Source: Methanoculleus taiwanensis (GTDB taxonomy: Archaea; Halobacteriota; Methanomicrobia; Methanomicrobiales; Methanoculleaceae). Taken from it: a stretch of 64,000 nucleotides of DNA. The stretch is from positions 124,001-188,000 of the forward strand of contig NZ_LHQS01000001.1 of NCBI RefSeq assembly GCF_004102725.1, in the 5' to 3' direction. The first letter of the stretch is position 1; the number at the start of each line of letters is the position of its first letter. A model generated the notes under the pieces. That model had not been told where the DNA came from. It did not search any database and saw only the letters and a program-made list of their open reading frames with translations. Positions 24,707 through 42,021 of the stretch are shown here, one piece after another. A program made the translations under genes and the position numbers.

Positions 24707-24772
24707 TAAACCGGCGAGACCGGGTGCGGGAGAACCTTTTTTGCCCCGGCAGGTGCACACCTCTGCAATCCG

Positions 24773-25660
24773 ATGAACTGCCGAGCCGATGATGGCGGGT
24801 GGATCCGCTTCTCCCGCCCCGAACCGGGGGAGCTCCGCCGCCAGGGCCTGCTGCCCGTGGATCTGCATGTCCACACAAACCATTCGGACTCTCCGACGAG
24901 AGTGAAGGATGCCCTCAAACTCGCCGCCCGACAGGGGATCGGGCTCGCCATCACCGATCACAATCGGATAAGCGGTGTCCTTGAAGCCCTGCGGCTGGAT
25001 TCCGGTGTTCCGGTCGTCCCCGGGATCGAGATCAGTGCAGACGACGGCCCGCATATCCTCCTCTACTTTGCCTCATACGGCGACCTTCGGGAGTTCTACA
25101 CCGGGTACATCGAGAGAAATACACGGTCAGCCCCGTATATCGGGATACGGCTGACCACGGAGGAGATACTCGACGCCCGAGAGGGCTATCCGTGCGTCGC
25201 CGCTGAGGCGCACCCGTGCGGATACGTCTTCCTGAACCGGGGGGTGGAGCGGTGCATCGCCGGGGAATGTATCGGCGAAGATCTCTTCTCCCGCCTCGAC
25301 GCCCTCGAAGTTATCTGCGGCGGGATGGCACGGTCCCACAACCGGAGAGCGGCGGAACTCGCACGGAAGCACCGGCTCGGCAGGACGGGAGGAACTGACG
25401 CCCACCTCCTCCACGAGCTCGGGGGAGTCGTCACCTGCGCCTCTGCCGAGACGGCGGAAGAACTCCTGGAGGCGATTCTCCGGCGCGAGACGATCGTCAT
25501 CGGGGAGGAGCGGACGATCCTCGGCAAAGCGGTGACGGGGACGGCGGCCCTGCCGCACCACCTTCCCTATACGGTGCCGATTCTGCATGCCCGATGGGAG
25601 CAGAACCGCCCCCGCATCGAGCGGTTCATCCAGTCCCGGCGTACCGGGAGAAACGGGTAG
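24773..25660 (+). CDS. PHP-domain phosphoesterase
   Basis: This 295-residue protein carries the four PHP metal-binding motifs in order: DLHVHTNHSD (about residue 30), AITDHNRISG, PGIEIS, and AEAHPCGYVF with GRTGGTDAHLLHELG near residue 200. PHP proteins hydrolyse phosphoester bonds in nucleotides or nucleic acids. No polymerase or nuclease domain is attached, so the substrate is open. The start ATG 24773 is 66 bp past the third SpoIIAA-like gene. Confidence 0.87.
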   Translation: MNCRADDGGWIRFSRPEPGELRRQGLLPVDLHVHTNHSDSPTRVKDALKLAARQGIGLAITDHNRISGVLEALRLDSGVPVVPGIEISADDGPHILLYFASYGDLREFYTGYIERNTRSAPYIGIRLTTEEILDAREGYPCVAAEAHPCGYVFLNRGVERCIAGECIGEDLFSRLDALEVICGGMARSHNRRAAELARKHRLGRTGGTDAHLLHELGGVVTCASAETAEELLEAILRRETIVIGEERTILGKAVTGTAALPHHLPYTVPILHARWEQNRPRIERFIQSRRTGRNG

Positions 25661-25681
25661 CCGGGATGCGCCGGGTACGGC

Positions 25682-27112
25682 TCAGCCAAGCGGAGAGAAG
25701 AGCCGGGAGATCGATTCCTTGATCTTAATCAGGGTCGGCCGTTCTGCGTAGCGCTCCGGCGTTAGCTCGGTGCAGACGGCGAGATCCTCAATAAATCGCC
25801 GTTTCATCTCGCTCCCGACGGCCGAGTCGTAGAAGAAGGCGTTCGCCTCGAAGTTCAGCCGGAAACTGCGGACATCCCAGTTCGCACTGCCGACGGAACC
25901 GGCTTTCCCGTCGACCACGACGGTCTTTGCATGGATGAAGCCGTTGTCGTAAGTGTAGACCTGCACTCCCGCATCGAGCAGGTCGGCGGCGAAGGAGAGG
26001 GACGCCCAGTAGACGAAGGGGTGATCAGGTTTGCAGGGGATCATAAGACGGACGTCGACGCCGGAGAGCGCTGCGAGCCGCAAAGCGTCGGAGATGCTCT
26101 CGTCGGGGATGAAGTAGGGCGTCTGAACATAACAGGACTCCCGGGCGGAGTTGATCAGCTTGATGTACCCCTCCTTTACGGGGTTCCACCGGGTATCGGG
26201 GCCTCCCGAGACGATCTGGACCGGCGTGGTGCCGGACCCTTCAACCCCGGGGAAGTACTGTTCGACCACCTCCATCGACTCTTTCGTCGTGAACTGCCAG
26301 TCTAGGAAAAAACGGAGTTGCAACAGGCTTGCGGCCTGCCCGGTGATCTTCACCGCGGTATCCCGCCAGTAGCCCATCGGCCCTTTGCCCAGGTACTCGT
26401 CCCCGATATTGAAACCGCCGATGAAACCGACAGCTCCGTCGATGACGGCGATTTTTCGGTGGTTCCGGTAGTTCAATCGGTAGATCGAGGGGAAGAATAC
26501 CCCGATCTGTCCGCCGGCATCGGTCAGTTCATGGAAGGCTTTCTTCGATCCTTTCCCCGCCCGGGTTCCCATGGCATCGAAGAGCAGGCGGACCTCAACA
26601 CCCTCGCGTGCCTTTTCTGCGAGCGCGTGGACAACAGCACGCCCGAGTTCGTCATTGTTCACGATGAAGTACTCTAGATGGATATGGTGGCGGGCGTCCC
26701 TGATCGCCTCAAAGAGCGCATCGAACTTCTCTTTCCCGTCGGTATAGACCTCGACCCGATTGTTCTCTGTCAGGAACGCCCGGTTATTCTGAAGAAGTGC
26801 GAAGATAGTATCGCGGTAGGGTTCTGCGTCCGGGTTTGCAAACCGGAAGTGACTGTCGACCAGATCGCGGTGCTGCTCCTCAAATATCTCCTTGAGTCTC
26901 CGGTCACCCGCCTCTTTGACGGTAAACATCTTACGCCGCGTATAGTTCTGCCCGAAGAGCAGGTAGAGCACGAACCCGATCGCGGGCAGGAAGAAGAGGA
27001 CCATCAGCCATGCCAGCGCCGACGTAGGATTCTTCCGCTCGACGAAGACGACAACGATGGCAAAGAAGATGTCGAAGAGCAGGATGATGCCGAGGATGAA
27101 CGACCAATTCAT
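25682..27112 (-). CDS. Cardiolipin synthase-like phospholipase D family protein
   Basis: This 476-residue membrane enzyme has two N-terminal TM helices, NPTSALAWLMVLFFLPAIG being the classical Cls signature. Two catalytic PLD motifs follow (NHRKIAVIDG near residue 215 and HAKTVVVDG near residue 396). In archaea such enzymes form glycerol-bridged dimeric ether lipids (archaeal cardiolipins), which rise under osmotic stress. ATG 27112 has GAGAGG about 8 nt upstream and gives the standard N-terminus MNWSFIL. A TATA box (27201-27210) lies 90 bp upstream, divergent from the DUF1269 gene. Confidence 0.9.
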   Translation of the reverse strand: MNWSFILGIILLFDIFFAIVVVFVERKNPTSALAWLMVLFFLPAIGFVLYLLFGQNYTRRKMFTVKEAGDRRLKEIFEEQHRDLVDSHFRFANPDAEPYRDTIFALLQNNRAFLTENNRVEVYTDGKEKFDALFEAIRDARHHIHLEYFIVNNDELGRAVVHALAEKAREGVEVRLLFDAMGTRAGKGSKKAFHELTDAGGQIGVFFPSIYRLNYRNHRKIAVIDGAVGFIGGFNIGDEYLGKGPMGYWRDTAVKITGQAASLLQLRFFLDWQFTTKESMEVVEQYFPGVEGSGTTPVQIVSGGPDTRWNPVKEGYIKLINSARESCYVQTPYFIPDESISDALRLAALSGVDVRLMIPCKPDHPFVYWASLSFAADLLDAGVQVYTYDNGFIHAKTVVVDGKAGSVGSANWDVRSFRLNFEANAFFYDSAVGSEMKRRFIEDLAVCTELTPERYAERPTLIKIKESISRLFSPLG

Positions 27113-27196
27113 GTTAAGAACCTCTCTCAAGCCATTGTTTTCCCGCACGCGAAAGGGAGAGCCTTTGGCACCGGACTCAAGTAAGCCCTCTCGTCA

Positions 27197-27275
27197 CAGC
27201 AGTATATAAATGGGTACCCAGGCAGGAATGAGTCTCCGGGAACGAGGGGAGAGGAGGAGGTAGTTATATATTCCA
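27197..27275. promoter_or_regulatory. Divergent promoters for cardiolipin synthase and DUF1269 gene
   Basis: AGTATATAAA at 27201-27210 reads as a good TATA box on the minus strand for the cardiolipin synthase gene. GTTATATATTCC at about 27263-27274 serves as a TATA box for the plus-strand DUF1269 gene starting at 27370. The two promoters are only about 60 bp apart, so co-regulation is possible. Confidence 0.6.
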
Positions 27276-27369
27276 GTGCACGGATTGTGCCGGTATGCTT
27301 GCGCGTATCCGCCGTGCACCGGCCCTGCAGGGGATGAACCGGGAGGGCGGGACGCCCGCAGGAGGTACC

Positions 27370-27891
27370 ATGAGCGATCTTGTTGTTATTGCGTATGACG
27401 ATGAATCCACAGCCTATACGGTCCGTGATAAACTGGTGGATCTGACCAAGGAGCACATTATCGAGCTGGAGGATCTGGTCGTCGTCGTCCACCATAAGGA
27501 CGGAAAGACCGAGATCAAGCAGAGCACCGATCTGGTCAGCCTGGGTGCGCTCTCCGGCGCTTTCTGGGGTCTGTTGATCGGGCTTATCTTCTTCATGCCG
27601 ATCTTCGGCCTGGCGATAGGCGCAATTGCAGGCGCCCTCGGCGGGCGTTTCTCCGACTACGGCATCGATGACAAATTCATCAAGGAAGTGGCCGAGAATG
27701 TCCAGCCCGGGAACTCTGCCGTCTTTCTGCTGATCAAGAAGATGACGCCGGACAAGGTAATCGACGCCATCAAGGGATATCACGGCACCGTAATCCAGAC
27801 GTCGCTCTCAAGCGAGGAGGAGGAGCGTCTTCGCGACGCATTCAGCACCGGGCTGCCAGCAAAGGCAGAAGTGCCGCCTCCCTCTCCGTAA
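27370..27891 (+). CDS. DUF1269 membrane-associated protein, copy 1
   Basis: This 173-residue protein has the DUF1269 pattern. An N-terminal alpha/beta part (MSDLVVIAYDDESTAYTVRDKL) leads to LEDLVVVVHHKDGKTEIKQ. A Gly-rich hydrophobic hairpin (LGALSGAFWGLLIGLIFF... AIAGALGG) is followed by NSAVFLLIKKMTPDKVIDAI. ATG 27370 has a perfect GGAGG at 5 nt. DUF1269 proteins are widespread and uncharacterised; this window has three, all in the stress-type region. Confidence 0.88.
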   Translation: MSDLVVIAYDDESTAYTVRDKLVDLTKEHIIELEDLVVVVHHKDGKTEIKQSTDLVSLGALSGAFWGLLIGLIFFMPIFGLAIGAIAGALGGRFSDYGIDDKFIKEVAENVQPGNSAVFLLIKKMTPDKVIDAIKGYHGTVIQTSLSSEEEERLRDAFSTGLPAKAEVPPPSP

Positions 27892-27964
27892 TCATTTTTG
27901 AGAGCGGCAGAGCGGGGCGGCGGGGACATCCATCCCGTACCGGCAACCGCACCAGCAGGAAGTG

Positions 27965-28588
27965 ATGGAGCGTATGCGTGACGTCAGGGTAGCCAGGTTT
28001 GAACGCGCCGGTGTGATGCACGTTGAATTCCGGTTTAAAGCACTCGATCAACTTCTCGATCCAGCGGACTCTTCTCCTCTGCCGGAACGGGAACTCACGG
28101 AGTTCGCCGAGGAGTATATTTTCGGGTATCTCAGAGAGTGCAGGCTGCAGAATCTCGCAGGGCTCAACATCAGCCTCCCACAGGATCAGGTTTCGCCGGA
28201 GATGCAGATGCTCCTGCCCGACACCATCCGCCGGCAGTATCTGTTCCGGTTAAGTGACCTCGACCACGAAACCCGACTTTCACTACGTGAAGGGAGGATT
28301 AGCCTCGCAATTGCGGTCTTCAATGCCACCATCGCGGTGCTGTTCTTCAGCATCTTTGCGAGCTATCTCGAGTCGCTCGTTGTCATCCTCCTCGGCGGCC
28401 TGATCACCATTTTAAACTGGGTGACCATCTGGAACACCTACGAGTATTTCGTGTACGACTACCGGCACCTGATGCACAGACGCAGGATCTATCGGAAGGT
28501 TCCGGCTCTGGAGATCAAGGTTCTGACCTGGCCACTCACCGGTAACCCGGAGGAGACAGTTCATCCCGCCGACCGGGAGATCGGTTGA
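27965..28588 (+). CDS. Membrane protein with two TM helices, family unknown
   Basis: This 207-residue protein has a soluble N-terminal domain of about 110 residues with many acidic and hydrophobic positions (FGYLRECRLQNLAGLNISLP). Two TM helices follow (about 117-136 and 140-160). A basic-aromatic cytosolic C-terminus (YRHLMHRRRIYRKVPALEIKVLTWP) ends the protein. The start is tentative: GTG 27962, ATG 27965 and ATG 27974 are all possible, and AGGA precedes 27965. I do not recognise it. Confidence 0.6.
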   Translation: MERMRDVRVARFERAGVMHVEFRFKALDQLLDPADSSPLPERELTEFAEEYIFGYLRECRLQNLAGLNISLPQDQVSPEMQMLLPDTIRRQYLFRLSDLDHETRLSLREGRISLAIAVFNATIAVLFFSIFASYLESLVVILLGGLITILNWVTIWNTYEYFVYDYRHLMHRRRIYRKVPALEIKVLTWPLTGNPEETVHPADREIG

Positions 28589-28941
28589 GTACAGCTCGGT
28601 TAGGACTGCTGACATCGTCGCCCGGGCTCCACTCGGTCTGCCGCAGCACACTACCGCCTGACCTATGCGTATCTATGCGGGTACTGAATCCCTTCAGGGG
28701 TAATGGTATGGAGAATAAGCATGCACATCCGGGCGACACCGCTGCGGGACGTCGTGATCAAATCCCGGTCGACCGCGATGAAGAGGAGCGAAACCCCGGC
28801 CTGACAGGAGGAGAGAGGACATCGACCCGACGGCGGAGGAACAGCTCTTCGGATCGGGGTTCGGCACTCCACTATTTTTATATACCTTCTGCCGTTATTC
28901 CCGCCGCGAGCAGCAATTGCCATTCTGTTCGGGAGAGGGTT
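28589..28941. other. Gene-free stretch with lipoprotein promoter
   Basis: No gene can be supported across these 350 bp. TTTTTATATACC at about 28874-28885 is a good TATA box for the lipoprotein gene at 28942 and gives a leader of about 35 nt. An open frame continues upstream of that start but has no signal or domain, so the upstream part is not treated as coding. Confidence 0.5.
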
Positions 28942-29319
28942 ATGAAATCAGGGATGTTTTTCGTCGCCGGGATACTCATTCTGGGCTGCGCCGTTGCCGG
29001 GTGCGTCCAACCTGCCCAGGAACGGGCGGAGGCAGAGCTCTGCCGGGACCTTGAAGCACTCGGCGTAGCGCTTCAGAATCTGCAGAGCGTCAATGCAACC
29101 TCTTCGGTGGGAGATATTCGGGACGCACAGGGTGAGGTGCAGTCTGCCAGGGAGAATGTCAGGAGTTCTGCAGGCCGGCTCGCCGACATCCGGGTCAACG
29201 AACTCACTGCGGCGTATGAAGAGCTCAGTCAAGTCGTGCAGAACATCCCCAACAGTGCGAACGTCGTTGAAATCGTCCAGACCATCCGCCCGAAGGTGCA
29301 GGCGGGCACTACGGGCTGA
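28942..29319 (+). CDS. Small helical lipoprotein
   Basis: This 125-residue protein has a signal peptide ending in lipobox-like AVAGC (about residues 17-21), so it is likely lipid-anchored on the outer face of the membrane. The rest is helical with regular Leu/Val spacing (LEALGVALQNLQSVNATSS, DIRDAQGEVQSARENVRSS, LTAAYEELSQVVQNIPN). It aligns by pattern with the membrane-anchored protein at 23289. ATG 28942 has GGAGAGGG close upstream. Function unknown. Confidence 0.78.
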   Translation: MKSGMFFVAGILILGCAVAGCVQPAQERAEAELCRDLEALGVALQNLQSVNATSSVGDIRDAQGEVQSARENVRSSAGRLADIRVNELTAAYEELSQVVQNIPNSANVVEIVQTIRPKVQAGTTG

Positions 29320-29537
29320 GAGGAGACCGGGTTCTCGAAAAGGGGCAGGAAGCAACGGGCGGCGGCCTGTGTTAAAACTTGAGAAATACCCGGGTTCATC
29401 GAGATGCAGAGAAAGAACCCTCACCTTTATGCATCGAGAGAGCAGTAAAGCAGGCGATCATGGATCAAACGAAGGGAGGGGAAAGGAGCTGCAATTCCCG
29501 GGAGCTTCAATCGTCCTTACGGGAACAGAGGTGATCG

Positions 29538-30836
29538 ATGAGCGGATCTGATGGTGAGGTGCCCCCCGCCTTCCACGTCATGGCCAAACCGACCGGTGCA
29601 CGGTGCAATCTTGCCTGTGCCTACTGCTTTTTCCTGAAGAAGGAGGAGCTGTACCCGGATAGCACGTTTCGGATGACCGACGGGGTGATGGAGGAGTATA
29701 TCCGCCAGACCATCGAGGGACATCGCGTGCCCCAGGTGACGATTGCCTGGCAGGGGGGAGAGCCGACCCTGATGGGGCTGGACTTCTTCCAGCGAGCCGT
29801 GGAGGTGCAGAAGAAGTATGCGAAACCCAAAACCCGTATCGAGAACACGTTCCAGACAAACGGCATCCTCCTCGATGACGAATGGTGCCATTTCTTCCAT
29901 GAGAATCAATTTCTCGTTGGCCTCTCCATGGACGGCCCCGCGGAACTGCATGATACCTACCGGAGAGACAGGCGGGGTCGCGGCACGTTTGACCGGGTTC
30001 TCAAAGCCGCCCGCCTGCTCCAGAAACACCAGGTCGAATACAACATCCTCTGCGCAGTCAACAGCACGAACGCCGACTATCCACAGGAGGTATACCGATT
30101 CTTCCGCGACGAACTCTCTGCGCAATATATCCAGTTTATTCCCATCGTGGAGCGAAATAACGAGACCGGATTTCAGGAAGGGAACACGGTCACCGACCGA
30201 TCCGTCCGGCCGGATCAGTGGGGACGGTTCCTGATCGAGATCTTCGACGAGTGGGTCAGGAGAGACGTGGGCCGGATGTTTGTTTTGAACTTCGACGGGG
30301 CGCTCGCGGGCTGGCTCGGGATGGCGGGGACGGTCTGCGTCTTTTCCCCGACCTGCGGCCTTGGCGTGGCGCTCGAGCACAACGGAGACCTCTATTCCTG
30401 CGATCACTTCGTCGAACCGGACCACCTCCTCGGCAACATCCTCACGACACCGCTCGCCGAACTCGTGGGCTCGGAGAAGCAGCGGAGGTTCGGGGCAGTC
30501 AAACGTGATACGCTCCCCCGGTACTGCCGGGAGTGTGCGTTCCTCGCCATCTGCAACGGGGAATGCCCGAAGAACCGGTTCATCGAGACGCCGGACGGCG
30601 AGGCGGGACTCAACTACCTCTGCAAAGGCTACAAGGCTTTCTTCGCCCACGCCGACCGCCCGATGCGGATGATGGCCGACCTGCTCCGACAGGGGCGGTT
30701 TGCGGATGAGGTGATGCCGATGCTCGCCGCAAGGGAGAAAGGGCCTGCTAACCAGGCCAGGGTGGGTCGGAACGATCCCTGCCCATGCGGAAGCGGGCTG
30801 AAATATAAGAAGTGCTGCGGGCTCAGAACCCGTTAA
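29538..30836 (+). CDS. Anaerobic sulfatase-maturating-type radical SAM enzyme with SEC-C tail
   Basis: This 432-residue enzyme has the radical SAM motif [18 protein letters not shown], the signature of anaerobic sulfatase-maturating enzymes (anSME), which convert a Cys or Ser to formylglycine. [10 protein letters not shown] and the SPASM cysteines ([36 protein letters not shown]) are present. An added C-terminal SEC-C motif ([18 protein letters not shown]) should bind zinc. ATG 29538 has AGAGGTGAT about 5 nt upstream. The only sulfatase in the window, 5 kb away, is a decayed pseudogene, so the enzyme may now act elsewhere in the genome. Confidence 0.9.
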
Positions 30837-30987
30837 CGATGCAATGTCGTGGGAGATCGCCACCTCATCAGGCCTGAAAAATTATTTTTGCAAAAATATA
30901 ATAACCATCTATCCTGCATCAGGCATACGTTCCCGGATTCGCGTACAGGGAGACGATAGGCCTGGCGGACGGGGAGTTCGATGATCT

Positions 30988-31880
30988 GTGGCGGATCTGG
31001 AGTCTCTCACGGAAATCGGCGTAAACATCGGTGAAATACTCATAATTCTGCTTCTCACCGGTGCCGCCCTCGTTACCACAAGGGTCATTATGCGGCGCGG
31101 GCTCTGGCCGACAATCCTGAAGGCCGGATTGGCACCCGACAGAAGAATACTCTCCCTCGTTGAGCAGTTTGTCTACATCTTTCTCATCGTCTTCGGACTC
31201 CAACAGGTCGTCCGGTTCATCGTGCCGGAGGCTCCCGATCTTGATGACCTCTTCTTCATCATCTACTGGGTTGTAGGGCTCTACTTCGCCTTCCGCCTGA
31301 TCAGCGCCGCTGCGGACTGGTACTTGGCGATGGCCGCACCCCGGATCGAGGGCACAACGCATGAAAAATCGTCCCGAACGTGAAATACATCGTCATCATC
31401 GTCGTTTTTTCACTGGCGCACATCATCCTCCTCGATTACTTCGATATCAGCAGCTCGGCTCTGACCGCCGCCATCGCTTCCTTCGGCCTGGGCGCCCTGG
31501 TGGTGGGACTCGCCGCAGAGAACATCATCAACGACATCTTCAGCGGGATCGTGATCAGCATCGACCGCCCCGTCTGGGTCGGCGACCGCATCGAGATCCA
31601 GGAGCTGGAGACGCGGGGAGATGTGGTGGAGGTCGGCTGGCGGTCCACCCGCATTCTCACGAGAGACAAGCGGATGGTCGCCGTCCCCAACTCGCTCATC
31701 GGTTCGAATCTCGTAACGAACTACTCGGTGCCGGACAAGGTCTTCAGGGTCGAGACCGATGCGGTGATAGCATATGGGGCAGACATCGAATACGTCAGAG
31801 GCCTGATACTGGAGGCGATAGAGGAGCAGGACTGGGTGATGAAGGACAGACGGACACGGGCACTGACTGATATAACCTGA
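30988..31880 (+). pseudogene. MscS-family mechanosensitive channel, frameshifted and truncated
   Basis: Two abutting frames encode one MscS-type channel. 30988-31383 (GTG start) gives three TM helices and ends EGTTHEKSSRT. 31380-31880 supplies the next helix, the pore helix (ALTAAIASFGLGALVVGLAA), and the beta domain (RPVWVGDRIEIQE, NSLIGSNLVTNYS). Adding one base in the A-run at 31364-31368 would restore a continuous reading (EK-x-VPNVKYIVIIVV), so a single-base deletion is the likely cause. The C-terminal alpha/beta domain also ends early (ALTDIT), about 60 residues short of the usual length. A sequencing error could explain the frameshift but not the truncation. Translational coupling at the GTGA overlap is a weaker alternative. 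Confidence 0.75.
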
Positions 31881-31948
31881 TATTTATAATAATTTCCCAC
31901 TTGGGTTGCGCGGTTCAATGCCGTGCCAGGAGGGAGCCGTTGACCCGT

Positions 31949-32119
31949 CAACCCGTTTTCACCGCAGGAGAAACGCATCGGCGGGTCTTTCCCGTGCGTG
32001 ACCACGTTGTCGCCCCTTTGAGCGGGATGCGGCGTTCGTCCCGCTCAGACCGGTGCAACACATTTCTTGTATCTTCGACCGGGTATACACCATTGGTGCT
32101 GATGGAGGCAGAGAGAACG
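31949..32119 (+). repeat. Diverged dispersed repeat, copy A
   Basis: This stretch is similar to 34362-34534 along its length. Shared blocks include CCCGTTTTCACCGCA at the left end, GTATCTTCGACCGGG towards the right end, and CTGATGGA followed by GCAGAG at the right end. Copy A lies just upstream of the TMEM175-type gene. Its frames have stops and do not conserve a protein shared with copy B, so it looks non-coding. Confidence 0.6.
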
Positions 32120-32208
32120 CAAGGCACCATTTTTACGCTACCAAGGGATGAAGAAACCATACTCTTTTCATATCTCCTTCCATCCATACTCGCGATCAGG
32201 TGATGTTG

Positions 32209-32877
32209 ATGGCTGCCCCTGATGAGAGCACGAAGAGATCCGACCCCGGCCACCCGCCCCACATTCTCCCCACGGACAGGCTGAACGCGTTCGCCGACGG
32301 CGTCTTCGCCATCGTCATCACCCTGCTCGTCCTCGAACTCCCGGTGCCGGAGGTTGCCGACGGCCTGCTATGGGCGCTTCTGGAACAATGGCCCGATTTC
32401 CTCGCTTATATTATCAGTTTCGTGTTCATCGGCGGGTTCTGGATAACGCATGCAGCCATCACCCGGCTCACCGAGCAGGAAGACCAGGTCACCTTCCGGC
32501 TGACGCTGATTACACTCTTCTTCATCTCCCTGATCCCGTTCTCCACGAGCCTGATGGCCACCCACCTCACCGGCTCGGGTTCCCGGCTGTCGGTGCTCCT
32601 CTACGGGCTGAATTTGCTCATCGCCTCGATCATGCTGAGCGGGATCATGCGTTACCTTGCCCGGCGCCGCGAACTGCTCGTGGACGACCTTGCGGAAGAA
32701 GATGTTGATGATATGGAACGAAAGCGGCGATCGGGCATCATCTTCAACGCTATCGGGGTGCTGCTCGCCCTCCTCTTCCCCCCACTGGCGGTCGCCGCGT
32801 ACATCGGGGTGGCGTTCTTCTTCTTCCTCCAGCCCCTGCTCTATAAAAGGATTATACGGCGTTCTTTGAAAACCTGA
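32209..32877 (+). CDS. TMEM175-family (DUF1211) potassium channel-like protein
   Basis: This 222-residue membrane protein contains six TM helices. The first carries RLNAFADGVFAIVITLLVLEL, the position of the FSD motif that lines the pore in TMEM175 channels (here FAD). FIGGFWITHAAITRL and FFISLIPFSTSLMATH are further family segments. ATG 32209 follows AGGTGAT by about 5 nt; GTG 32200 and ATG 32203 are alternatives. Prokaryotic TMEM175 proteins conduct K+, so a role in ion balance fits the surrounding region. Confidence 0.85.
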   Translation: MAAPDESTKRSDPGHPPHILPTDRLNAFADGVFAIVITLLVLELPVPEVADGLLWALLEQWPDFLAYIISFVFIGGFWITHAAITRLTEQEDQVTFRLTLITLFFISLIPFSTSLMATHLTGSGSRLSVLLYGLNLLIASIMLSGIMRYLARRRELLVDDLAEEDVDDMERKRRSGIIFNAIGVLLALLFPPLAVAAYIGVAFFFFLQPLLYKRIIRRSLKT

Positions 32878-33400
32878 TAGAAGAGAGCCACCCTCTCCCC
32901 ACGAGATCCGGGATACCTACGGTGTGGAAGTGGAGCCGGGACATGACGATGCGCTCATACTCGCCGTTACGGCGGCGATCGACCAGATTTCGCACGATTA
33001 GGAGAGGACGGACGGAATCAACTGGAGATCGGGTGGCCAGTCCCGGAGACGGGACTCCTGCCATCTGGATTCCCGGTCATGGCCGTCAACCATGAGCACT
33101 CCGAGAAAGATGCCGAAGGAGAGATATACATCCGAACATCCGGAGGATTGGCAGACCCGGATGAAAGAGAGCCGTTTATCCATTTAATATAACCTAATGC
33201 ATATAATAAAATCTTTATATTATCTTAACTACAGTAGGCCGAGCCCGCCTCCTGCATGCATACACCCGAAGAAGTCAACGAAGATCGCTGATCGACGCCT
33301 TCGGGGCTCTTGATGCCGCATCTTATAACAGCAGTATAAGCGCAGTATACGGCTGGAACGGGCCAACTGAGAACAGATTCAGTAAAGGGGGAATAGAGAA
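32878..33400. other. Intergenic stretch, no supported gene
   Basis: About 520 bp without convincing coding sequence. The segment 33182-33232 is strikingly AT-rich. TCTTATAAC near 33320-33328 is a candidate TATA box for the DUF1269-type gene at 33401. The short open frames here are low-complexity and lack ribosome binding sites. Confidence 0.5.
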
Positions 33401-33958
33401 ATGGCTGAAGTTATGTATGGACCGATGCAGCTCCTGGTCATCGGATTTCCGAACCCGGACTTCCACGGTCAGATTCGCCGTGCGCTCGGGTCGGTCATGG
33501 AGGAGGGCATTATCAGGCTGATCGACCTCCGGTTCGTGTACAAAGACGCAGACGGCAACGCCAGTGCCATGGAGGCTACCCAGCTCGACGATGAGGAGCG
33601 GGAGCGCTTCGGCGCCGCCGTCGGCGCACTCATCGGCCTCGGGGCCGGCGGAGCGGAAGGAGCACGGAAAGGCGCCGAAACCGGCGCCATGGCGGCCGCC
33701 CAGCAGACCTTTGGGATGACCGAGGAGGACGTTCAGAGGATCACCGACGCCATCCCGAACGACAGCGCCGCCGCCGTCTTCCTCATCGAGCACCTCTGGG
33801 CGAAAGACCTCAAGCAGGCACTCCGCGATGCCAACGGATACCTCATCGCCCAGGGCATGGTCACGCCGGAAGCCCTTGTCATGATAGGAGATGCACTGCG
33901 AGAAGCAGCTGAAGGTGCAGAGGAGGAGAAAAAACCAATGGCGGCACCGGCACGCTGA
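33401..33958 (+). CDS. DUF1269/DUF6325-type protein, copy 2
   Basis: This 185-residue protein shares the DUF1269-like plan. The N-terminal MQLLVIGFPNPDFHGQI has a beta-alpha form, and EEGIIRLIDLRFVYKDADGN is the central strand pair. A Gly/Ala-rich segment (AAVGALIGLGAGGAEGARKGAETGAMAA) replaces the hydrophobic hairpin. IPNDSAAAVFLIEHLWAKDL closes the fold. The glycine-rich segment is less hydrophobic than in copies 1 and 3, so this one may be soluble. AAGGGGGAA precedes ATG 33401. Confidence 0.82.
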   Translation: MAEVMYGPMQLLVIGFPNPDFHGQIRRALGSVMEEGIIRLIDLRFVYKDADGNASAMEATQLDDEERERFGAAVGALIGLGAGGAEGARKGAETGAMAAAQQTFGMTEEDVQRITDAIPNDSAAAVFLIEHLWAKDLKQALRDANGYLIAQGMVTPEALVMIGDALREAAEGAEEEKKPMAAPAR

Positions 33959-34071
33959 AGCGATGCCGAGACTGACCCGCTCTCATTTTTCCATTGCCTC
34001 ACCCGATCACTCATCCTGCTGATGCTCATCCCGCCCGCCACCGCTGTCCCAATGTCACCTATCCGGATGTG

Positions 34072-34257
34072 ATGATCATGATCCTCATCGTTGAGCTGGT
34101 CGGTTTCGTGCTGCTGATGTTCGCGAGCGAGGAGATGGATAAGCGGGCGGAGCGGCATCTGCGGTTACTCGGGAGAAGAAGCCCACAAAGGCATCGCAGG
34201 GATGAAGGAGGCAAAAAAAGAGAGCACCATCTTTTTCCCTGCACAATCGGGGGATGA
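34072..34257 (+). CDS. Possible small single-TM protein
   Basis: A short frame from ATG 34072 encodes one strong hydrophobic helix (MIMILIVELVGFVLLMFASEE) followed by a very basic, arginine-rich tail (AERHLRLLGRRSPQRHRRDEGG). No ribosome binding site or family is recognised, and the end runs into low-quality sequence, so it may be spurious. Confidence 0.3.
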   Translation: MIMILIVELVGFVLLMFASEEMDKRAERHLRLLGRRSPQRHRRDEGGKKREHHLFPCTIGG

Positions 34258-34361
34258 AGAAGGGGTCATCATAGATGCCCATGTCTTCGAGCGTATCGAT
34301 CAGGCGTATCACCTGGGCGTCGGTGTGCTCTGCAAAGCCAGGATGCTCCCCATCGGCCCTT

Positions 34362-34534
34362 CAGCCCGTTTTCACCGCATGGGAAAGGTATCGAGGGGGT
34401 CTTCTCCCTACGTGGCCGCGTTCTCGGCCCTCGGGCCGGGTGTGACGTTCGCCCTGCTCAGGCCGGTGTAGCAGTCAGGGGACTGCATTTTTTGTATCTT
34501 CGACCGGGGATACGCTGATGGACGCAGAGGAACG
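34362..34534 (+). repeat. Diverged dispersed repeat, copy B
   Basis: This is the second copy of the repeat at 31949-32119, in the same orientation and of similar length, with a short internal gap relative to copy A near its right end. A shorter similarity also links 34221-34265 to 32117-32158, which lies on the other side of copy A, as though the order of two blocks were permuted. No inverted ends or transposase accompany it. Confidence 0.6.
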
Positions 34535-34604
34535 GGTGAAAAAAGGGAGTCCGGTGCCGGTCACCCGCACCTCCTCAGATCGTATCTCTCAAAGCAGCCT
34601 CTTT

Positions 34605-35141
34605 TCATGTAGCGGGTGGTGCGGCAACCTTGGCTGTATAGGACGCGATCTCACCCGACATCTCGTCGCCCAGCGTGAGCGTCACCACATTGGGATTGTA
34701 GCCGCTCATGCTGTTGACGACATCCTCGGTGTAGGTGTCTTCGAGCAACAGCAGAACAGCCGAGCTGTCGGGTGTCAGGGCATTACCGATATCTTCCAGA
34801 TCGCCTTTCTTGATGGGGCGACCGAGGTATTTGCCGGCGACGCCGCCGACCACAGCACCGCCGACTACCCAAGCCAGAAACCCGGCGGGACCGCCGATGA
34901 GGCTCAGGAGCCCGCCGGCAACCGCGCCAGCTGCCGCCCCGAGGCCACCCCTGCCCGGTTCGTGAAAATGCACTTTGCCCTGTTCGTCCTGCTCGACCAC
35001 GGCCTGGGCAATGATATCAAAGCCTTCCAGCAGGCCGGCGTTTTTGGCTTCGTTCAGGATGTTTCCTGCCGTCTTCTGGCCGTCAAAGACGAGCGCCAGA
35101 ATGTCATAAACTTCCGAAGAACCTGTTTCTGTTTTACCCAT
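34605..35141 (-). CDS. DUF1269 membrane-associated protein, copy 3
   Basis: This 178-residue protein has the family plan: EVYDILALVFDGQKTAGNIL at the N-terminus, a Gly/Ala-rich hydrophobic hairpin (GGLGAAAGAVAGGLLSLIGG, then FLAWVVGGAVVGGVAG) at about residues 70-105, and LTPDSSAVLLLLEDTYTEDV. ATG 35141 is preferred over ATG 35147 because AGGTGA then has normal spacing. A minus-strand TATA-like TTTATAAATTTG (about 35257-35268) is a likely promoter. Confidence 0.87.
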   Translation of the reverse strand: MGKTETGSSEVYDILALVFDGQKTAGNILNEAKNAGLLEGFDIIAQAVVEQDEQGKVHFHEPGRGGLGAAAGAVAGGLLSLIGGPAGFLAWVVGGAVVGGVAGKYLGRPIKKGDLEDIGNALTPDSSAVLLLLEDTYTEDVVNSMSGYNPNVVTLTLGDEMSGEIASYTAKVAAPPAT

Positions 35142-35327
35142 GTTCATTCACCTTTGCGGGGTTGGCCTGATGCACATGGTGGTATCGCACCTTTGAGCAA
35201 CAGATCCCATTTTTTACGGCCTGGATCCGTCGTCCAGAGCAACCTCAACCCACCCCAAATTTATAAAAATGTTTTTATGCTCGTGCCGTGTTGAATAAAT
35301 CCGGTTGATACGACCAGAAGAGAGAAG

Positions 35328-35648
35328 ATGACGGTCGCCCCTGCCGGTCTTCCATACCAAAGAAAAAACACTGGGGACGGCCGTACCCCGATACTCGCGA
35401 CTGGGATATCTAATGAACACCTGGTTCGGTGGGGTGAGTTCTACCTCTCACTTGACTTCCTTGAGCAGTGGGACGAGCTCCTTGGCCGGATGAACGCCGG
35501 CAAGCGCGGCCGGCCGTGTCAGTATCCTGAGCCGTTCATCGAGTGGATGGCCTGCATTCACATCTTCCTGCAGATGCCCTATCGCCAGATGGAAGGGTTT
35601 ACCCGAAAGCTCGCGACCGCCTTGCAACCATCGGAGTCATGGTGGTGA
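35328..35648 (+). mobile_element. Transposase fragment, IS5/DDE type, N-terminal part only
   Basis: The 106-residue frame resembles the N-terminal part of IS5-group transposases: WGEFYLSLDFLEQWDELLG, GKRGRPCQYPEPFIEWM, and LQMPYRQMEGFTRKLA. The DDE catalytic core is missing. The frame runs into opposite-strand sulfatase remnant sequence near 35625-35680. No terminal inverted repeats were found. It is a dead remnant that probably marks the deletion or insertion that damaged the sulfatase gene. Confidence 0.7.
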
Positions 35649-35659
35649 TGAACCGCACC

Positions 35660-36284
35660 GGCGCGGAGATTAACGTCGCACATCCAGGCCGCCACTTCCT
35701 TCTCATGGTCGACATAATGCTCACCGCCTACATCGATCACCACCCGATCGATGGTTCCACCCGTAAAGGCGAAGGGTGCGGAATAATCAGGCGATACCGG
35801 GGATCCGCTGTCCCGGCCGACACAGAGACCGTCGCCGGTGAGGGAGAAGAATCCCGGCTGAGTCTTGATCCGTCCCTCTCCTACCTTCTTCATGTCTATG
35901 TACAATGTGAGGGTGCCTAGAGCGCTCTTCGTCTCCGTATCCTCTCCGTCCCTGGCGAACTCCGCGATGAAGGCGTGCCGACCGGCGGGCACGGTGTCGT
36001 TCGAGGAAATCTTCTGGATCGCGTCGCCAAGCCAATTGTAGACGTAGTGCAGTCGCCCATCGGCAATGTACAGGCTGTGGCCGCCGCCAATCCCTCCCTG
36101 AGCAAACAGCACGCCCTGCGCATCCGGCCCGTCGATACGTCCATAGCCCCGTAGCCCACGTCATCCCAGACGATCATCAGGATGTTGGGGCACTCTCAGG
36201 TGTCTGCGGCTACAGGTAGGAATCCCAATCAGACACCGAATCCCGGATATCGAGATTGACCGTGCCCTTCCATGTATCAGACAT
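35660..36284 (-). pseudogene. Arylsulfatase pseudogene with internal deletion
   Basis: Reading the minus strand from ATG 36284 gives MSDTWKGTVNLDIRDSV, then an in-frame TAG. After a one-base shift in a C-run the N-terminal sulfatase motif PNILMIVWDDVGYGAMD follows (36189-36139). Five bases later, in another frame, comes sequence from the far C-terminus (DGPDAQGVLFAQGGIGGGHS... FTGGTIDRVVIDVGGEHYVDHEKEV). Most of the enzyme is missing, including the formylglycine C/S-x-P-x-R site. The C-terminal end merges with the IS fragment. Stop codon, frameshift, deletion and IS damage together rule out function. The gene was presumably a client of the maturase at 29538. Confidence 0.8.
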
Positions 36285-36349
36285 AGTGCACTCTCCACAC
36301 ACTGCAATTGTGACGCCGCCTAAGGAGGCGTCATGGATTAATTCTTTTG

Positions 36350-36660
36350 GATGCCCGAAAACCGTCGGAGAACCAGGGGCTGTACCAACCCTTCAGGGCA
36401 GGCGGCGGTGCCGGAAGTGCCAGAAGACCCTTCAATTAAAAAGGCTGATAGGCCGGGAACGACATCATGCGGTGGATGGCCGGAAGTGGTATGGGTAGGT
36501 TTACGAGCGCATACCTATCGGATTATGCCGTACGCGGGCAAGGGTAAAACGGCCGGTGTGGAACTCCCAGGGACAATCTCACCAGGGTGGCAGAGAGAAC
36601 AAATACTGTTCACACGGATAATGGTGAAGAAGCGGCTCTATTCGATCAGTTTTGAGATAC
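36350..36660 (+). mobile_element. Degenerate element, possibly IS1-like (InsA zinc ribbon)
   Basis: No intact frame is present. One frame gives GRRRCRKCQKTLQL, like the zinc-ribbon end of IS1-family InsA proteins. A second frame gives GNDIMRWMAGSGMGRFTSAYL, similar in spacing to the helix-turn-helix after that ribbon. A third gives HTDNGEEAALFDQF, of DDE-transposase flavour. Three frames and stops imply decay. The assignment rests on pattern only. Confidence 0.35.
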
Positions 36661-36703
36661 AGATGCAATGGCACCGCTAAAAGAGTAAAAGGTAAAAAAT
36701 TGT

Positions 36704-36925
36704 TCAGGTCTGGTACCCCGGCGCTCCAGTTGCCGCCATCGTCATCATTTCGGTTGGTGTCGTCTCCATCGTCATCGTTTCAGTCGGTGTCACTTCAGTG
36801 GTCATGGGTGTCGTTTCAGTCGGCGTTGCCGTCGGGGTCTCATTACCCACCGGTGAAACGCACCCCGCCGCCAGGACCGCCACGGCCATGATCAGCAGCA
36901 TCAGCAGGATCGATTTTTTCAACAT
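36704..36925 (-). CDS. Small Thr-rich lipoprotein
   Basis: This 73-residue protein has a signal peptide with lipobox LAAGC at about residues 18-22. The mature part is almost wholly Thr, Pro, Met and Glu (PTATPTETTPMTTEVTPTET), a typical archaeal surface stalk that could be O-glycosylated. ATG 36925 has AGGGGG about 8 nt upstream. No functional domain is attached. Confidence 0.72.
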   Translation of the reverse strand: MLKKSILLMLLIMAVAVLAAGCVSPVGNETPTATPTETTPMTTEVTPTETMTMETTPTEMMTMAATGAPGYQT

Positions 36926-37301
36926 CTATAAGCCCCCTGAAGTTAAGGAGGAAGGCACCGACTATTCGGCAAACAATATATAATTAACGGCATAGCCAGA
37001 TGCTCGTGAGAAACCTTTTTTTGAGTCGATTCACCTATTTTCCCATCAGAGAGAGGAATCATCGGGTATCCTCCACCGGTCGGGGCGGTGTTCAAGACCC
37101 CCGCCCTCAACGGCACCGACCGTGGCGACGCGGTCATGATCCCGGCAGACAGGGCAAGGTAAGCGAACAATACTGCCGGTCACGAGGTACGGCCATTATC
37201 TGGAAAGTATTATAAAAACCGGTTCCTATGACTGAACCGGTTGAGGCGGGAGAACGGCGACGTCACCGCACAGTCCACATCACAACCTATGGAGGAAGGA
37301 A
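36926..37301. promoter_or_regulatory. Promoter with perfect palindrome before the SHOCT gene
   Basis: A TATA box (ATTATAAAA, about 37209-37217) is followed immediately by a perfect 9-bp inverted repeat (AACCGGTTC 37217-37225 with GAACCGGTT 37234-37242; 8-nt spacer). The repeat sits between TATA and the expected start site, where a bound repressor would block transcription; it could also form a 5' hairpin. The rest of the 375-bp gap holds nothing I can support. Confidence 0.6.
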
Positions 37302-37775
37302 ATGTTTCGTATGGGAGCCCGGAGGACCGCACGGAGAACCGCCCGCCGTACATCACGCCGCGTCATGCGCCGTACCATACGGCGGACCGTCCTCGTAGGC
37401 GGGATGGTCGCGCTCGCTGTCGGCGGAACCGCCGCCGTCATCAAACTCTCACAGAGGGATGTCGACCGCATCGAGCAGCATACGGGAAAAAAGGCCGAAA
37501 ACCTCTCCGAGCAGGAGCTGAACACGGCGATGGACGACCTCGGCATCGAGGAGCAGGAGATAACCGATCAGGACATGACCACAATCGAAGCCGGTATGGT
37601 AAAAGAACAGGCTCCGCAGCCTTCCAGAGCGCCCCCGGCAGCCCCTCCGCCCGGGGCTGTGCCTGCCGAACCGTCTTACATCGGCGAACTGGAGAAGCTT
37701 GCCGGGCTTCGGGATAAAGGGATCATCACCGAGGAGGAGTTCCAGGCCAAGAAGAAGCAGCTCCTGGGATTGTAG
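37302..37775 (+). CDS. SHOCT-domain protein with Arg-rich N-terminus and TM helix
   Basis: This 157-residue protein starts with a very basic N-terminus (ARRTARRTARRTSRRVMRRT), then one TM helix (VLVGGMVALAVGGTAAVI). An acidic linker and a Pro/Ala-rich hinge lead to a C-terminal SHOCT domain (IGELEKLAGLRDKGIITEEE then FQAKKKQLLGL). SHOCT segments are short protein-interaction or oligomerisation units. ATG 37302 has GGAGGAAGGAA just before it. Function unknown. The Arg repeats could contact nucleic acid or lipid head groups. Confidence 0.8.
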   Translation: MFRMGARRTARRTARRTSRRVMRRTIRRTVLVGGMVALAVGGTAAVIKLSQRDVDRIEQHTGKKAENLSEQELNTAMDDLGIEEQEITDQDMTTIEAGMVKEQAPQPSRAPPAAPPPGAVPAEPSYIGELEKLAGLRDKGIITEEEFQAKKKQLLGL

Positions 37776-37844
37776 ATCCGGAGATTCTGGAATGGGCAGA
37801 CACCCCCGAAAGACGGTCGTTTCTCCTGCGAGAGAGAGGTGACC

Positions 37845-38870
37845 ATGCCCGCCCCGTCCCGCCTTGCATCACTCACCCGGGTTGTCATCATCAGTGCCGT
37901 CGTCGTCACCGGCATGTACCTCGGCGCCGCGATTGTGAGCCCGGTGCTCGCCGGGTTCATCCTGGCGATCGTCGTCACACCGACCGTGCACCGCCTGGAA
38001 GAGCGCGGGTTGCCCGGGTTGGCAGCGGTGCTGGCGATGGTCGGCGCGATCGCATGCGTTGCCCTGCTGCTCGTCGCACTCCTGAGCCTGTCGCTGATCG
38101 AACTCGACAGCGCCCTGCCCGCCTACCAGGACCTCCTACAGGCACAGCTGGAAACACTGCAGGCACGGCTTGCGGACATCGGGATCATGGCCTCTCTCCA
38201 GCTGCCCGATGCAGCTTCAGGGCCTCTGCTCATCCCCTCGCTCGGGGAGATCCTCGCCGGACTCTCCATTCTGGTCGTCGATTTTCTGGTCATCCTGATC
38301 GTGGCCGTCTTCATGCTCCTCGAGGTGGCCTCCATCCGGGGAAAACTCCAGAAAAGTCTGGGGGCGGATGTTGAGGCGGAACTCGGCCGAGCCGCGAACA
38401 ATCTGGTCGAATACGCAGTTCTTCGCACCAAAAGCGGCATTGCAACCGGTATCGTTATCGCGACTCTCCTGCTGCTCCTCGGGATCGACGCCCCGGTGCT
38501 CTGGGCGGTCCTCATCGTCGTGCTCGGCTACATCCCCTACTTCGGGCTGCCCATAGCAGCCGCACCCCCTATCGGGCTTGCCTGGCTCCAGCACGGCCTC
38601 CCTGGGGCGCTCGCCGTCGCGGTCGGCATCTTCGTCGTCGATCTTCTTGCCCGCCGCGTGCTCCTGCCGTACCCTGCCGAGCGGGCGCTCCGAATCTCCC
38701 CACTGGCGATCGTCCTCTCGGTCCTCGCCTGGACGCTGGTGCTCGGTGTCCCGGGACTGTTTCTGGGTGCTCCCCTGGCGCTGCTCATAAAGGCTGTGCT
38801 GTCGAGTTCGGAAGAGACACGGTGGCTGGCGATACTGATGGAGCCGTCCGATACAGATACAGAATCATAA
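37845..38870 (+). CDS. AI-2E family transporter (PerM/TqsA-like), copy 2
   Basis: This 341-residue polytopic protein is a paralogue of 21712-22755. Shared elements are the early helix LAGFILAIVVTPTVHRLEERGLP, the cytoplasmic helical part starting ALPAYQDLLQAQLETLQ, LGYIPYFGLPIAAAPPIGLAWL, and the terminal GAPLALLIKAVL. GAGGTGA precedes ATG 37845; GTG 37839 is an alternative. It lies about 70 bp after the SHOCT gene and may share its transcript. Confidence 0.87.
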   Translation: MPAPSRLASLTRVVIISAVVVTGMYLGAAIVSPVLAGFILAIVVTPTVHRLEERGLPGLAAVLAMVGAIACVALLLVALLSLSLIELDSALPAYQDLLQAQLETLQARLADIGIMASLQLPDAASGPLLIPSLGEILAGLSILVVDFLVILIVAVFMLLEVASIRGKLQKSLGADVEAELGRAANNLVEYAVLRTKSGIATGIVIATLLLLLGIDAPVLWAVLIVVLGYIPYFGLPIAAAPPIGLAWLQHGLPGALAVAVGIFVVDLLARRVLLPYPAERALRISPLAIVLSVLAWTLVLGVPGLFLGAPLALLIKAVLSSSEETRWLAILMEPSDTDTES

Positions 38871-38916
38871 GGCCGGATCGCCACACAGCGGGTGAGGAGA
38901 TTATCCATCCGGCCAC

Positions 38917-38930
38917 AAATATAATATATT
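38917..38930 (+). promoter_or_regulatory. TATA box upstream of the ligand-gated channel gene
   Basis: AAATATAATATATT is a strong TATA-like box about 100 bp before ATG 39032, in the only sizeable gap between the AI-2E gene and the channel gene. It would give a leader of about 75 nt. Confidence 0.55.
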
Positions 38931-39031
38931 GGCAATAGTAATGGAATCCACTGATACTGATGTATACCTCTTACGATCACCCCCTTACGTATCGCCCATG
39001 AGGTGATTGAACTGCTGACGGAGCAGATCTG

Positions 39032-40939
39032 ATGCACACCCCGACCGACACGCCGATACCGTTACTCCGGCCCCGGCGCGCCTATGCCTGGTGGAGAATT
39101 CTCCTCCTGGCGCTTCTCCTGTGCGTACTCACAGGCACGGCCGCTGCCCAGCAGGCACAGAACGCCAGCGTGCAGGAGCTGACCGGGCGAATAGAACCGA
39201 ATCAGGTTATTATTTATGATCTCCCCGGCCTGCAGGCGGGAGAGACCCTCTCCGTCTATGCCAACGGGACAGGGGGAGACCTTGACCCATTCCTGGCTCT
39301 CGCGAATACGAGCCTGACCCGGGGAGAGGCACGCCGGGAGTTTGCCACAGAGGTCAATCGGTCTATCGCCGAAGGGCGTGATCCGCTCCAGGTGATCCCG
39401 GAGATTGCTGACCGATACTTCCTTGCATGGGACGACGACTCCGGAGCGGGCTACGATGCAGCAGTTCAGTATACGATCCCGGCCGATGGTGATTACCTGC
39501 TGATCCTGTTCAGCTCCCCGGCGAAGGAGAATACATTCGGCACCTACCGGCTGCTGGTCGGCATCGACGCGCCGCAAGTCCTGACCGGGCAAGCGGAGCC
39601 GACCGGTGCCGCCATCGCCGTACTGGACAGAGATGCATCCGAGGTGGGCATGGCCGTGCAGGAGGTCGACGGGACGCTGACGGCGAACAGGACGTCGACA
39701 TTCTACACCTTAAACCCCGTCACAGAGGGCGATACCTTCTACGCCTTCATCGAGGCGACGTCCGGGGACCTTATCCCCGTTCTCGTTTTGCGGGACTTTG
39801 GCGGCAAACCCCTGAGCGCAGGCGTTCCGGCCGGAGACGGCATTACTGCCACCCTCGAGTACACCTTCGACGATGACAGCGAGGGCAACGAACTCGAGGT
39901 CTTCAGCCGCACCCGGAACGAAACCAACACGACGGGTGATTACCGGCTGCTGGCAGGGCTCAACGTGCCTGCCGTGCTGACGGGCGAGGCGGCACCGACG
40001 GCCCCCCGGCTCCTCCAGGAGCCTATCCGGGTGATGGTCGGGTTCGAGCTCGACCAGATCACGACGGTTGACCAGCAGGCCGAGAACTTCGGTGTGGTGG
40101 GCAACATCTGGATGCGGTGGACCGATCCGGCGCTGGCGTTCAGCCCGGACGAGTGCAACTGCCAGTTCAAAGTCTACCGAAGCGTCGAAGAGTTCGTGAG
40201 TGCCGAAGGGCAACGGTGGCCTGAGTTCACCCTCTTCAACCAGCAGGAACGGCGCTGGACGCAGAACCAGATCATCGTGGTTCGTCCCGACGGCACGGTC
40301 ACCTACTACGAGCGGTTCTGGACGCTCCTGCAGGCGCCGGACTTCAACTTCAGGCAATACCCGTTCGACACCCAGGACTTCTACGTGAGAATCGACTCCC
40401 TCTACCCCGAAGAGTTCTACGTCTACGTGCCCTGGGAGGAGAAGACCACCGTCGGCGGGCAGCTCGGTGAAGAGGAGTGGTACATCACCGACTACAACGC
40501 CAACGTGACCAGCATCCAGATCAACACACAGAACTCCCGCTACTCTTTTTACTTTGAGGCAGCCCGCCACCTGACCTTCTACGTCCTGCGGATCCTCCTC
40601 CCGATCCTGATAATCATCCTCCTGACCTACGTCACCTTCCTCCTCAAGGATTACGGGAAGCGTGCCGATGTGGCGAGCGCGAACCTCCTCCTCTTCATCG
40701 CCTTCAACTTCACCATCGCCGGCGACCTGCCGCGCCTCGGGTACCTGACGTTCCTCGACTCGATCCTGGTAACGACATTCGTGGTCACCGGCATCACGGT
40801 TGCCTACAATCTCTACCTGAAGTGGCTGGCCACGGAGCGGCAGAAAGAGATCGCGGAAAAGATCGACCGGGTCATGGTCTGGCTCTATCCTGCGACCTAC
40901 ATCGGAGCGCTCATACTGATAGCGCTCTTCTTCCCCTAG
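39032..40939 (+). CDS. Pentameric ligand-gated ion channel homologue with two extra N-terminal domains
   Basis: This 635-residue protein has a signal peptide (about 1-39). Two related beta-rich domains follow at about 45-178 and 183-312; each ends with a DGDYLLIL/TGDYRLL strand, resembling PPC-type sandwiches. The Cys-loop receptor module spans 325-635. Its extracellular part contains VGNIWMRWTD, YERFWTLLQ and the loop YPFDTQ (443-448), the hallmark of the family; prokaryotic members lack the disulfide. Four TM helices follow: M1 516-538 (LRILLPILIIILLTYV), M2 about 545-563, M3 about 577-598, M4 about 614-634. Such channels are rare in archaea. The layout recalls bacterial DeCLIC, which also has N-terminal domains. 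The ligand and ion selectivity are unknown. CNC at 375-377 may form a local disulfide or bind metal. Confidence 0.88.
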   Translation: MHTPTDTPIPLLRPRRAYAWWRILLLALLLCVLTGTAAAQQAQNASVQELTGRIEPNQVIIYDLPGLQAGETLSVYANGTGGDLDPFLALANTSLTRGEARREFATEVNRSIAEGRDPLQVIPEIADRYFLAWDDDSGAGYDAAVQYTIPADGDYLLILFSSPAKENTFGTYRLLVGIDAPQVLTGQAEPTGAAIAVLDRDASEVGMAVQEVDGTLTANRTSTFYTLNPVTEGDTFYAFIEATSGDLIPVLVLRDFGGKPLSAGVPAGDGITATLEYTFDDDSEGNELEVFSRTRNETNTTGDYRLLAGLNVPAVLTGEAAPTAPRLLQEPIRVMVGFELDQITTVDQQAENFGVVGNIWMRWTDPALAFSPDECNCQFKVYRSVEEFVSAEGQRWPEFTLFNQQERRWTQNQIIVVRPDGTVTYYERFWTLLQAPDFNFRQYPFDTQDFYVRIDSLYPEEFYVYVPWEEKTTVGGQLGEEEWYITDYNANVTSIQINTQNSRYSFYFEAARHLTFYVLRILLPILIIILLTYVTFLLKDYGKRADVASANLLLFIAFNFTIAGDLPRLGYLTFLDSILVTTFVVTGITVAYNLYLKWLATERQKEIAEKIDRVMVWLYPATYIGALILIALFFP

Positions 40940-40989
40940 CGGAGGCGCTGCCGCACGCATATTTATGGATCGGCGGCCAACAGAGTGGC

Positions 40990-42021
40990 ATGAACTGCCC
41001 GGTCTGCGGGGGAGACTGCATCGAGGACGCCCCCGCACTCTTTGCACGCCTGCCGCATGCCTTCGCCCCCTGCCCCGACTGCATGGGACTCACCTATGAC
41101 AAGCGCGCCCCGCCCCCCGACCTCGCTCCTGCCGAGCCCTGCCCCTCCTGCGAAAAAAGGTTCATCGATGATGTCTTCGCCCAGATCTGGACGATCATGG
41201 CAGACACCGGGGATCTCTCCCGGGACGACCCGCTCGCCGCCGCCGGGACACCTCTCGTCCATCCGGGCATCGCCCTGCACCGCCCGCCGTACCTCCCGCC
41301 CCGGTCGCTGGTGCTCCTCTCCCGCAGCGTCACAGAAGAAAGCGCACGGAGGCTCGTCGCCGAGGTTCCGGAGATCCGCGGCGTGGTACGGAACGGCGAC
41401 GGCGTCCCCGGCGTCATCGATACCGGGACGGACGGCAACGGACGGCGGCACACCCTCCTTGCAGGCTGCGACGTCCGCGCCGATATCTTCGACACCCCGG
41501 CAGGCCCTATCGCCGTCTACAAACAGCAGTCCGTCATCCACATCGAGTTCCCGCACGGGCAGAACCCCAAGATCCTCGCGACCTATCAGGCGATCCGCAA
41601 GCGGTCTCCCCGCACCTTCGTCGACGCCTGCTCCGGGGCGGGGACGCTCGGTCTTGCGGGAGGCGTCCTCGGCGTCCCCGCCGTGATCTGCAACGACGCA
41701 TGGTATGCCGCCGCTTTCTGGACGGCGTGCAATATCGGCGTGAACCGTGAAGCGCTCGGGGTAGAGGGCGTGCAGATCCTGCATTCGATCGCGGATCTCG
41801 CAGAGCGGCCGGTCGCGACCGAACCGGTGCTGGTTGCCGTCGCAGAGGGAGCGCGGGATATCCGGGTGTATCACGGCGATCTCCGCCTGCTCCCCCCCCT
41901 GCTGCCGGATACCGTCGATCTCACCGCAATCGACCTCTTTGAGAAGGATGACCGCGAGAAGCTAAAGGAGATCACCCAGTTCTGGATCGCTGCCGTAGGC
42001 GGAGATGTTTTTATCCCATAG
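40990..42021 (+). CDS. Zinc-finger protein with SAM-methyltransferase-like domain
   Basis: This 343-residue protein begins with two paired-cysteine motifs (MNCPVCGGDC, CPDC) and CPSC, forming zinc ribbons within residues 1-60. A linker leads to a Rossmann-type segment FVDACSGAGTLGLAGG at about residue 217 that fits SAM motif I, followed by NDAWYAAAFWTACNIGVN. ATG 40990 lies about 25 bp after CATATTTATG (40957-40966), so the message is probably leaderless. An in-frame upstream extension within the channel gene is rejected. It may modify RNA or protein, but the substrate is unknown. Confidence 0.72.
   Translation: MNCPVCGGDCIEDAPALFARLPHAFAPCPDCMGLTYDKRAPPPDLAPAEPCPSCEKRFIDDVFAQIWTIMADTGDLSRDDPLAAAGTPLVHPGIALHRPPYLPPRSLVLLSRSVTEESARRLVAEVPEIRGVVRNGDGVPGVIDTGTDGNGRRHTLLAGCDVRADIFDTPAGPIAVYKQQSVIHIEFPHGQNPKILATYQAIRKRSPRTFVDACSGAGTLGLAGGVLGVPAVICNDAWYAAAFWTACNIGVNREALGVEGVQILHSIADLAERPVATEPVLVAVAEGARDIRVYHGDLRLLPPLLPDTVDLTAIDLFEKDDREKLKEITQFWIAAVGGDVFIP

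Follow-up and report, generated by a model that had tools for sequence, protein, structure and literature searches.

The arylsulfatase AtsA of Pseudomonas aeruginosa (PDB 1HDH; SulfAtlas S1_4) carries a C-x-P-x-R nucleophile motif, and the typical anaerobic sulfatase maturase of family TIGR03942 has radical SAM and SPASM domains. Passages of the SulfAtlas paper place the FGly-sulfatases of archaea only in Methanomicrobia and Halobacteria, and describe them as probably of bacterial origin by acquisition (PMC5066984). A literature search on Methanoculleus together with arylsulfatase found nothing; the 'sulfatases' of one Methanoculleus paper are, in the portion that mentions them, sulfate-assimilation genes (PMC5985405).

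The stretch of DNA analysed here, termed the window, consists of 64,000 nucleotides from Methanoculleus taiwanensis (contig NZ_LHQS01000001.1, positions 124,001–188,000). On its minus strand, positions 36284–35670 hold both ends of one arylsulfatase gene of the Pseudomonas AtsA type. With a probability of about 0.96, an FGly-dependent arylsulfatase gene of the PAS/AtsA type (the 'A-type' copy) was inactivated in place in this lineage and is left as a pseudogene. The case fits the SulfAtlas picture and adds one lineage-specific loss. The features of the locus are as follows.

36135..36284, minus strand: 5′ part of the sulfatase pseudogene (about codons 1–50), with start ATG at 36284 and the conserved NILMIVWDDVGYGAMDV
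36134..36137, minus strand: deletion junction, with the two retained parts joined at about 36135 over a 2-bp exact overlap (AT)
35670..36134, minus strand: 3′ part of the sulfatase pseudogene (last ~155 codons), a C-terminal extension past the PAS-like domain
35284..35617, plus strand: left third (~334 of ~1,067 bp) of an IS5-type element with a truncated transposase (PF13737, E 4e-9)
29538..30836, plus strand: intact anaerobic sulfatase maturase of 432 aa, radical SAM/SPASM, with a C-terminal SEC-C motif

The sulfatase remnant and its intact orthologues

The closest orthologue is in genome G001, apparently Methanoculleus sp. FWC-SCC1 (contig 5, apparently NZ_VCYH01000005.1), with 88–91% DNA identity over the retained parts. 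The intact G001 protein (L100:3727-6072) aligns with AtsA over residues 32–567 and shares the C-x-P-x-R motif with it, but the archaeal A-type protein has ~215 more C-terminal residues. The remnant, unlike AtsA, is without codons ~51–628, and its active site is gone. When the G001 protein is used as a tblastn query, residues 1–34 are found at 36284–36183, residues 32–53 at 36192–36127 and residues 628–780 at 36136–35678, each in a different frame of the minus strand. The retained 3′ extension matches no listed Pfam family (E up to 0.001).

Orthologues were fetched from 11 related genomes. All 11 are intact, each has 783 codons including the stop, and CSPTR is present in every one. BLASTN comparison of the remnant with these genes gives E values of 0 to 1e-129, which are far beyond chance, with 82–91% DNA identity for the 3′ part (450–461 bp) and 76–89% for the 5′ part (146–175 bp). 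A pseudogene inherited from a distant common ancestor is ruled out for the 11 relatives that match most of the remnant; in these the two parts lie ~1.73 kb apart and the gene is intact.

The remnant is orthologous to the intact G001 copy, and the locus is syntenic. Window positions 36126–40232 (with a gap at 36468–36680) and 22057–28182 are collinear with G001 on either side, and the G001 equivalent of 22057–28182 adjoins the 3′ end of its sulfatase gene. The 7.5-kb segment at window positions 28183–35676, to which both the maturase gene and the IS fragment belong, is missing from that place in G001. The gap upstream of the start was considered as a 213-bp insertion relative to G001 and rejected: genome G024 has homologous sequence in part of 36468–36680, and thus G001 probably lost this segment rather than that it was gained here.

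The 1,732-bp core of the G001 gene has a sole real match in the M. taiwanensis genome, an intact paralogue on contig 2 (C2:945870-947593, 67%). A search with E up to 10 gives nothing else for the core in this genome but short, weak matches (best E 0.03). The core is therefore absent elsewhere except for the paralogue, and a programmed rearrangement, or a gene in pieces, is ruled out.

Lesions that inactivate the gene

Four inactivating lesions distinguish the remnant from all, or from the nearest, of its 11 intact orthologues. Codon 25 is changed from CAG to TAG; the first base of this codon is C in G001 and in 10 of 10 further orthologues. One base is gone from a C-run at codon 33 (GCCCCC to GCCCC). 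A deletion of 1,732 bp relative to G001 covers codons ~51–628 and leaves a frame change. Lastly, a single base is missing a few codons 5′ of the probable original stop, TAA at 35672–35670. With these codons went the CSPTR active site and most of the catalytic domain; almost the whole stretch aligning with AtsA (orthologue residues 32–567) and almost the whole PF00884 match (residues 33–464) are gone. The C/S-x-P-x-R nucleophile motif was removed with them, and the stop, the frame shifts and the deletion leave no continuous open reading frame across the catalytic domain.

A preliminary description of the window had proposed a decayed sulfatase at 35660–36284 with function-abolishing lesions. 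This is borne out by the intact state of all orthologues, the syntenic flanks and the absence of the core save for the 67% paralogue. The coordinates agree with the start codon and the probable stop, and the N-terminal PNILMIVWDDVGYGAMD stretch that it cited is present. Its list of a stop codon, a one-base shift in the C-run and a frame change at the junction is correct as far as it goes, but the base loss near the original stop was missed. The description 'extreme' for the C-terminal end needs to be amended, as the retained 3′ part is really ~155 codons.

Both breakpoints of the deletion fall in an imperfect 15-mer direct repeat, with 11 of 15 positions identical. A resemblance as close as that of the junction pair was seen in 52 of 183,215 random 15-mer pairs from the gene; this statistic is suggestive only, since the 15-mer was picked after the junction was seen. 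Slippage or microhomology might perhaps account for the deletion, with only tentative grounds for either because the repeat is imperfect and the exact overlap is just 2 bp. The internal deletion, between these short imperfect repeats, took away the catalytic domain; the frame was broken by one nonsense mutation and by the loss of a single base at two places.

Timing of the loss and other explanations

Changes on the remnant branch were polarised by the 10 other orthologues, and sites at which these disagree were set aside (four in the 3′ part, three in the 5′ part). Over 149 codons of the 3′ part, 8 changes are nonsynonymous and 20 are synonymous, a ratio far from neutral (p = 2e-7). The first 50 codons of the 5′ part have 5 nonsynonymous changes, one of which is the stop, and 2 synonymous changes; all five nonsynonymous changes are C>T or G>A. 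The 8:20 ratio indicates that the gene still worked for most of the branch, and by a crude estimate the neutral share of the branch is 1–8%. Thus the pattern of substitutions points to a recent death of the sulfatase. The ratio in the 3′ part fits recent death, although taken alone it is no proof that the 3′ part is decaying.

The same figures might be viewed as domain salvage, whereby the C-terminal ~150 residues were freed and selected as an independent small protein, encoded by a 177-aa open reading frame (GTG at 36112 to 35579). The 3′ part is indeed open over 177 codons, and its departure from neutrality stands next to the 5:2 ratio of the 5′ part; scaling from the 5′ part predicts ~15 nonsynonymous changes in the 3′ part, and eight or fewer has p = 0.04. 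However, a recent death of the whole gene, with its small neutral share, gives the same pattern. The direct contrast between the two parts is not significant (Fisher p = 0.075), and the 5′ parts of the orthologues likewise have a nonsynonymous share above that of their 3′ parts, so that separate upkeep of the 3′ part is possible but not needed. In addition, the base loss before the stop sends the open reading frame on into unrelated sequence. Salvage is therefore very unlikely. That the gene is intact and looks broken only through a sequencing or assembly artefact has a probability close to negligible. Single-base losses do make up half of the four lesions, and one falls in a C-run, but read errors do not typically produce a clean 1,732-bp deletion or a C>T nonsense change. 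Four separate lesions make a local assembly error unlikely; the assembly has 12 contigs with an estimated completeness of 99.98%, and the core is at no other place in the genome.

The adjacent mobile element deserves attention as a possible cause of the loss, by insertion or by adjacent deletion. Its transposase belongs to PF13737 (DDE_Tnp_1_5), a family linked to IS5. A complete version of ~1,067 bp is present in G024; the fragment here is without the right end, and no second copy of the transposase piece was found in this genome. The truncated end lies 53 bp from the sulfatase stop, and the fragment sits at the edge of the 7.5-kb segment that is missing from the G001 locus, both of which favour involvement. 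The preliminary description had the fragment abutting the C-terminal end; it is present, but outside the gene, separated from the stop by ~53 bp. The internal deletion does not touch it, and both edges of that deletion are sulfatase sequence. A causal role, if the preliminary description meant to imply one, is for these reasons not supported, and the IS element is a very unlikely agent of the loss. Inactivation in place by the four lesions accounts for the remnant; it is, on the evidence of the sequence comparisons, ordinary gene decay that is unusually well documented through close relatives.

The surviving sulfatases and the maturase

The preliminary description had suggested a search of the genome for intact sulfatases with C/S-x-P-x-R. 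A PF00884 search finds two intact sulfatases, one with CSPTR and one with CTAGR. The former, the B-type paralogue (G000:C2, L112), has 59% protein identity to the G001 A-type protein over its full length; thus the same genome has a broken A-type gene and an intact B-type gene on a separate contig. The other is a protein of 496 residues (G000:C2:888870-889859; L111:1888-3375, minus strand), in which CTAGR replaces C-x-P-x-R. It is a sulfatase-family protein, and G040 has a match comparable in score and length.

The survival of a maturase gene ~5 kb from the remnant had also been pointed out, and the gene is indeed there, 4.8 kb away at 29538–30836. The protein scores 503 bits against TIGR03942, which has a cutoff of 349, and contains PF04055 and PF13186. 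There are four TIGR03942 matches in this genome, and this is the only one above the curated cutoff. Its dN/dS is lowest (0.14) against G001 and ranges from 0.14 to 0.21 over the nine relatives, of 12 given, that yielded sequence under the start pattern used; this indicates purifying selection. In G001 the maturase gene is on a different contig from the A-type sulfatase gene.

The radical SAM and SPASM domains are those of a typical TIGR03942 maturase, but there is an extra C-terminal SEC-C metal-binding motif (window 30768–30833, plus strand), which is common to most relatives examined. Eight of the 10 maturases compared have it under a strict pattern. The L093 maturase has the motif with one change, and the L082 maturase appears to lose it.

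Of 41 genomes, 16 encode a maturase above the TIGR03942 cutoff, and each of these also has an A- or B-type sulfatase. A or B is present in a seventeenth genome, G021, which has just a maturase piece at a contig edge. The two types were called from how closely the C-terminal part matches the remnant (83–93% identity for A, 47–54% for B), and these calls cover 19 loci, a subset of the PF00884 matches. A-type genes are found in 11 genomes and B-type genes in eight, with both in G001 and G024. From this distribution either type alone seems to suffice, which fits the loss of A here. Loss of the A-type gene would have been tolerated through redundancy, because the B-type CSPTR paralogue remains on contig 2. 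The predicted radical-SAM maturase beside the dead gene most likely persists because it is needed to activate this paralogue, its putative present client. The apparently redundant sulfatase died while its dedicated activating enzyme stayed, and if it stayed for the paralogue, as is most likely, a maturase beside a dead sulfatase should not be taken as a sign of pathway loss. The case changes no general principle.

Remnants in other genomes and neighbouring sequences

Pieces of sulfatase and maturase genes are found in other relatives. In G014, the region C3:615500-626500 (L156) contains an N-terminal piece of a B-type gene (90 codons, 84%) and stretches that are syntenic to the window; this genome also has an intact B-type sulfatase. 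G017 has only maturase and sulfatase pieces (C3 and C2; L158 and L118), with no PF00884 match. These independent remnants are pointing to repeated loss of the sulfatase–maturase module, which is turning over among Methanoculleus relatives.

A second decayed gene is situated 2.7 kb from the sulfatase remnant. Window positions 32903–32998 (plus strand) carry the final 32 codons of a LURP-one-related gene (PF04525); contig 2 has an intact copy close to the B-type sulfatase. Intergenic sequence conserved over ~96 bp at 32905–33003 was considered as an RNA and rejected, as it corresponds to this gene end; an Rfam search of 27000–41000 found no family.

On the other side of the remnant, window positions 39032–40936 (plus strand) encode a protein of 635 aa with a neurotransmitter-gated ion-channel ligand-binding domain (PF02931) at residues 329–507. 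The domain is preceded by an N-terminal region of ~320 residues, and the DNA is conserved in related genomes.
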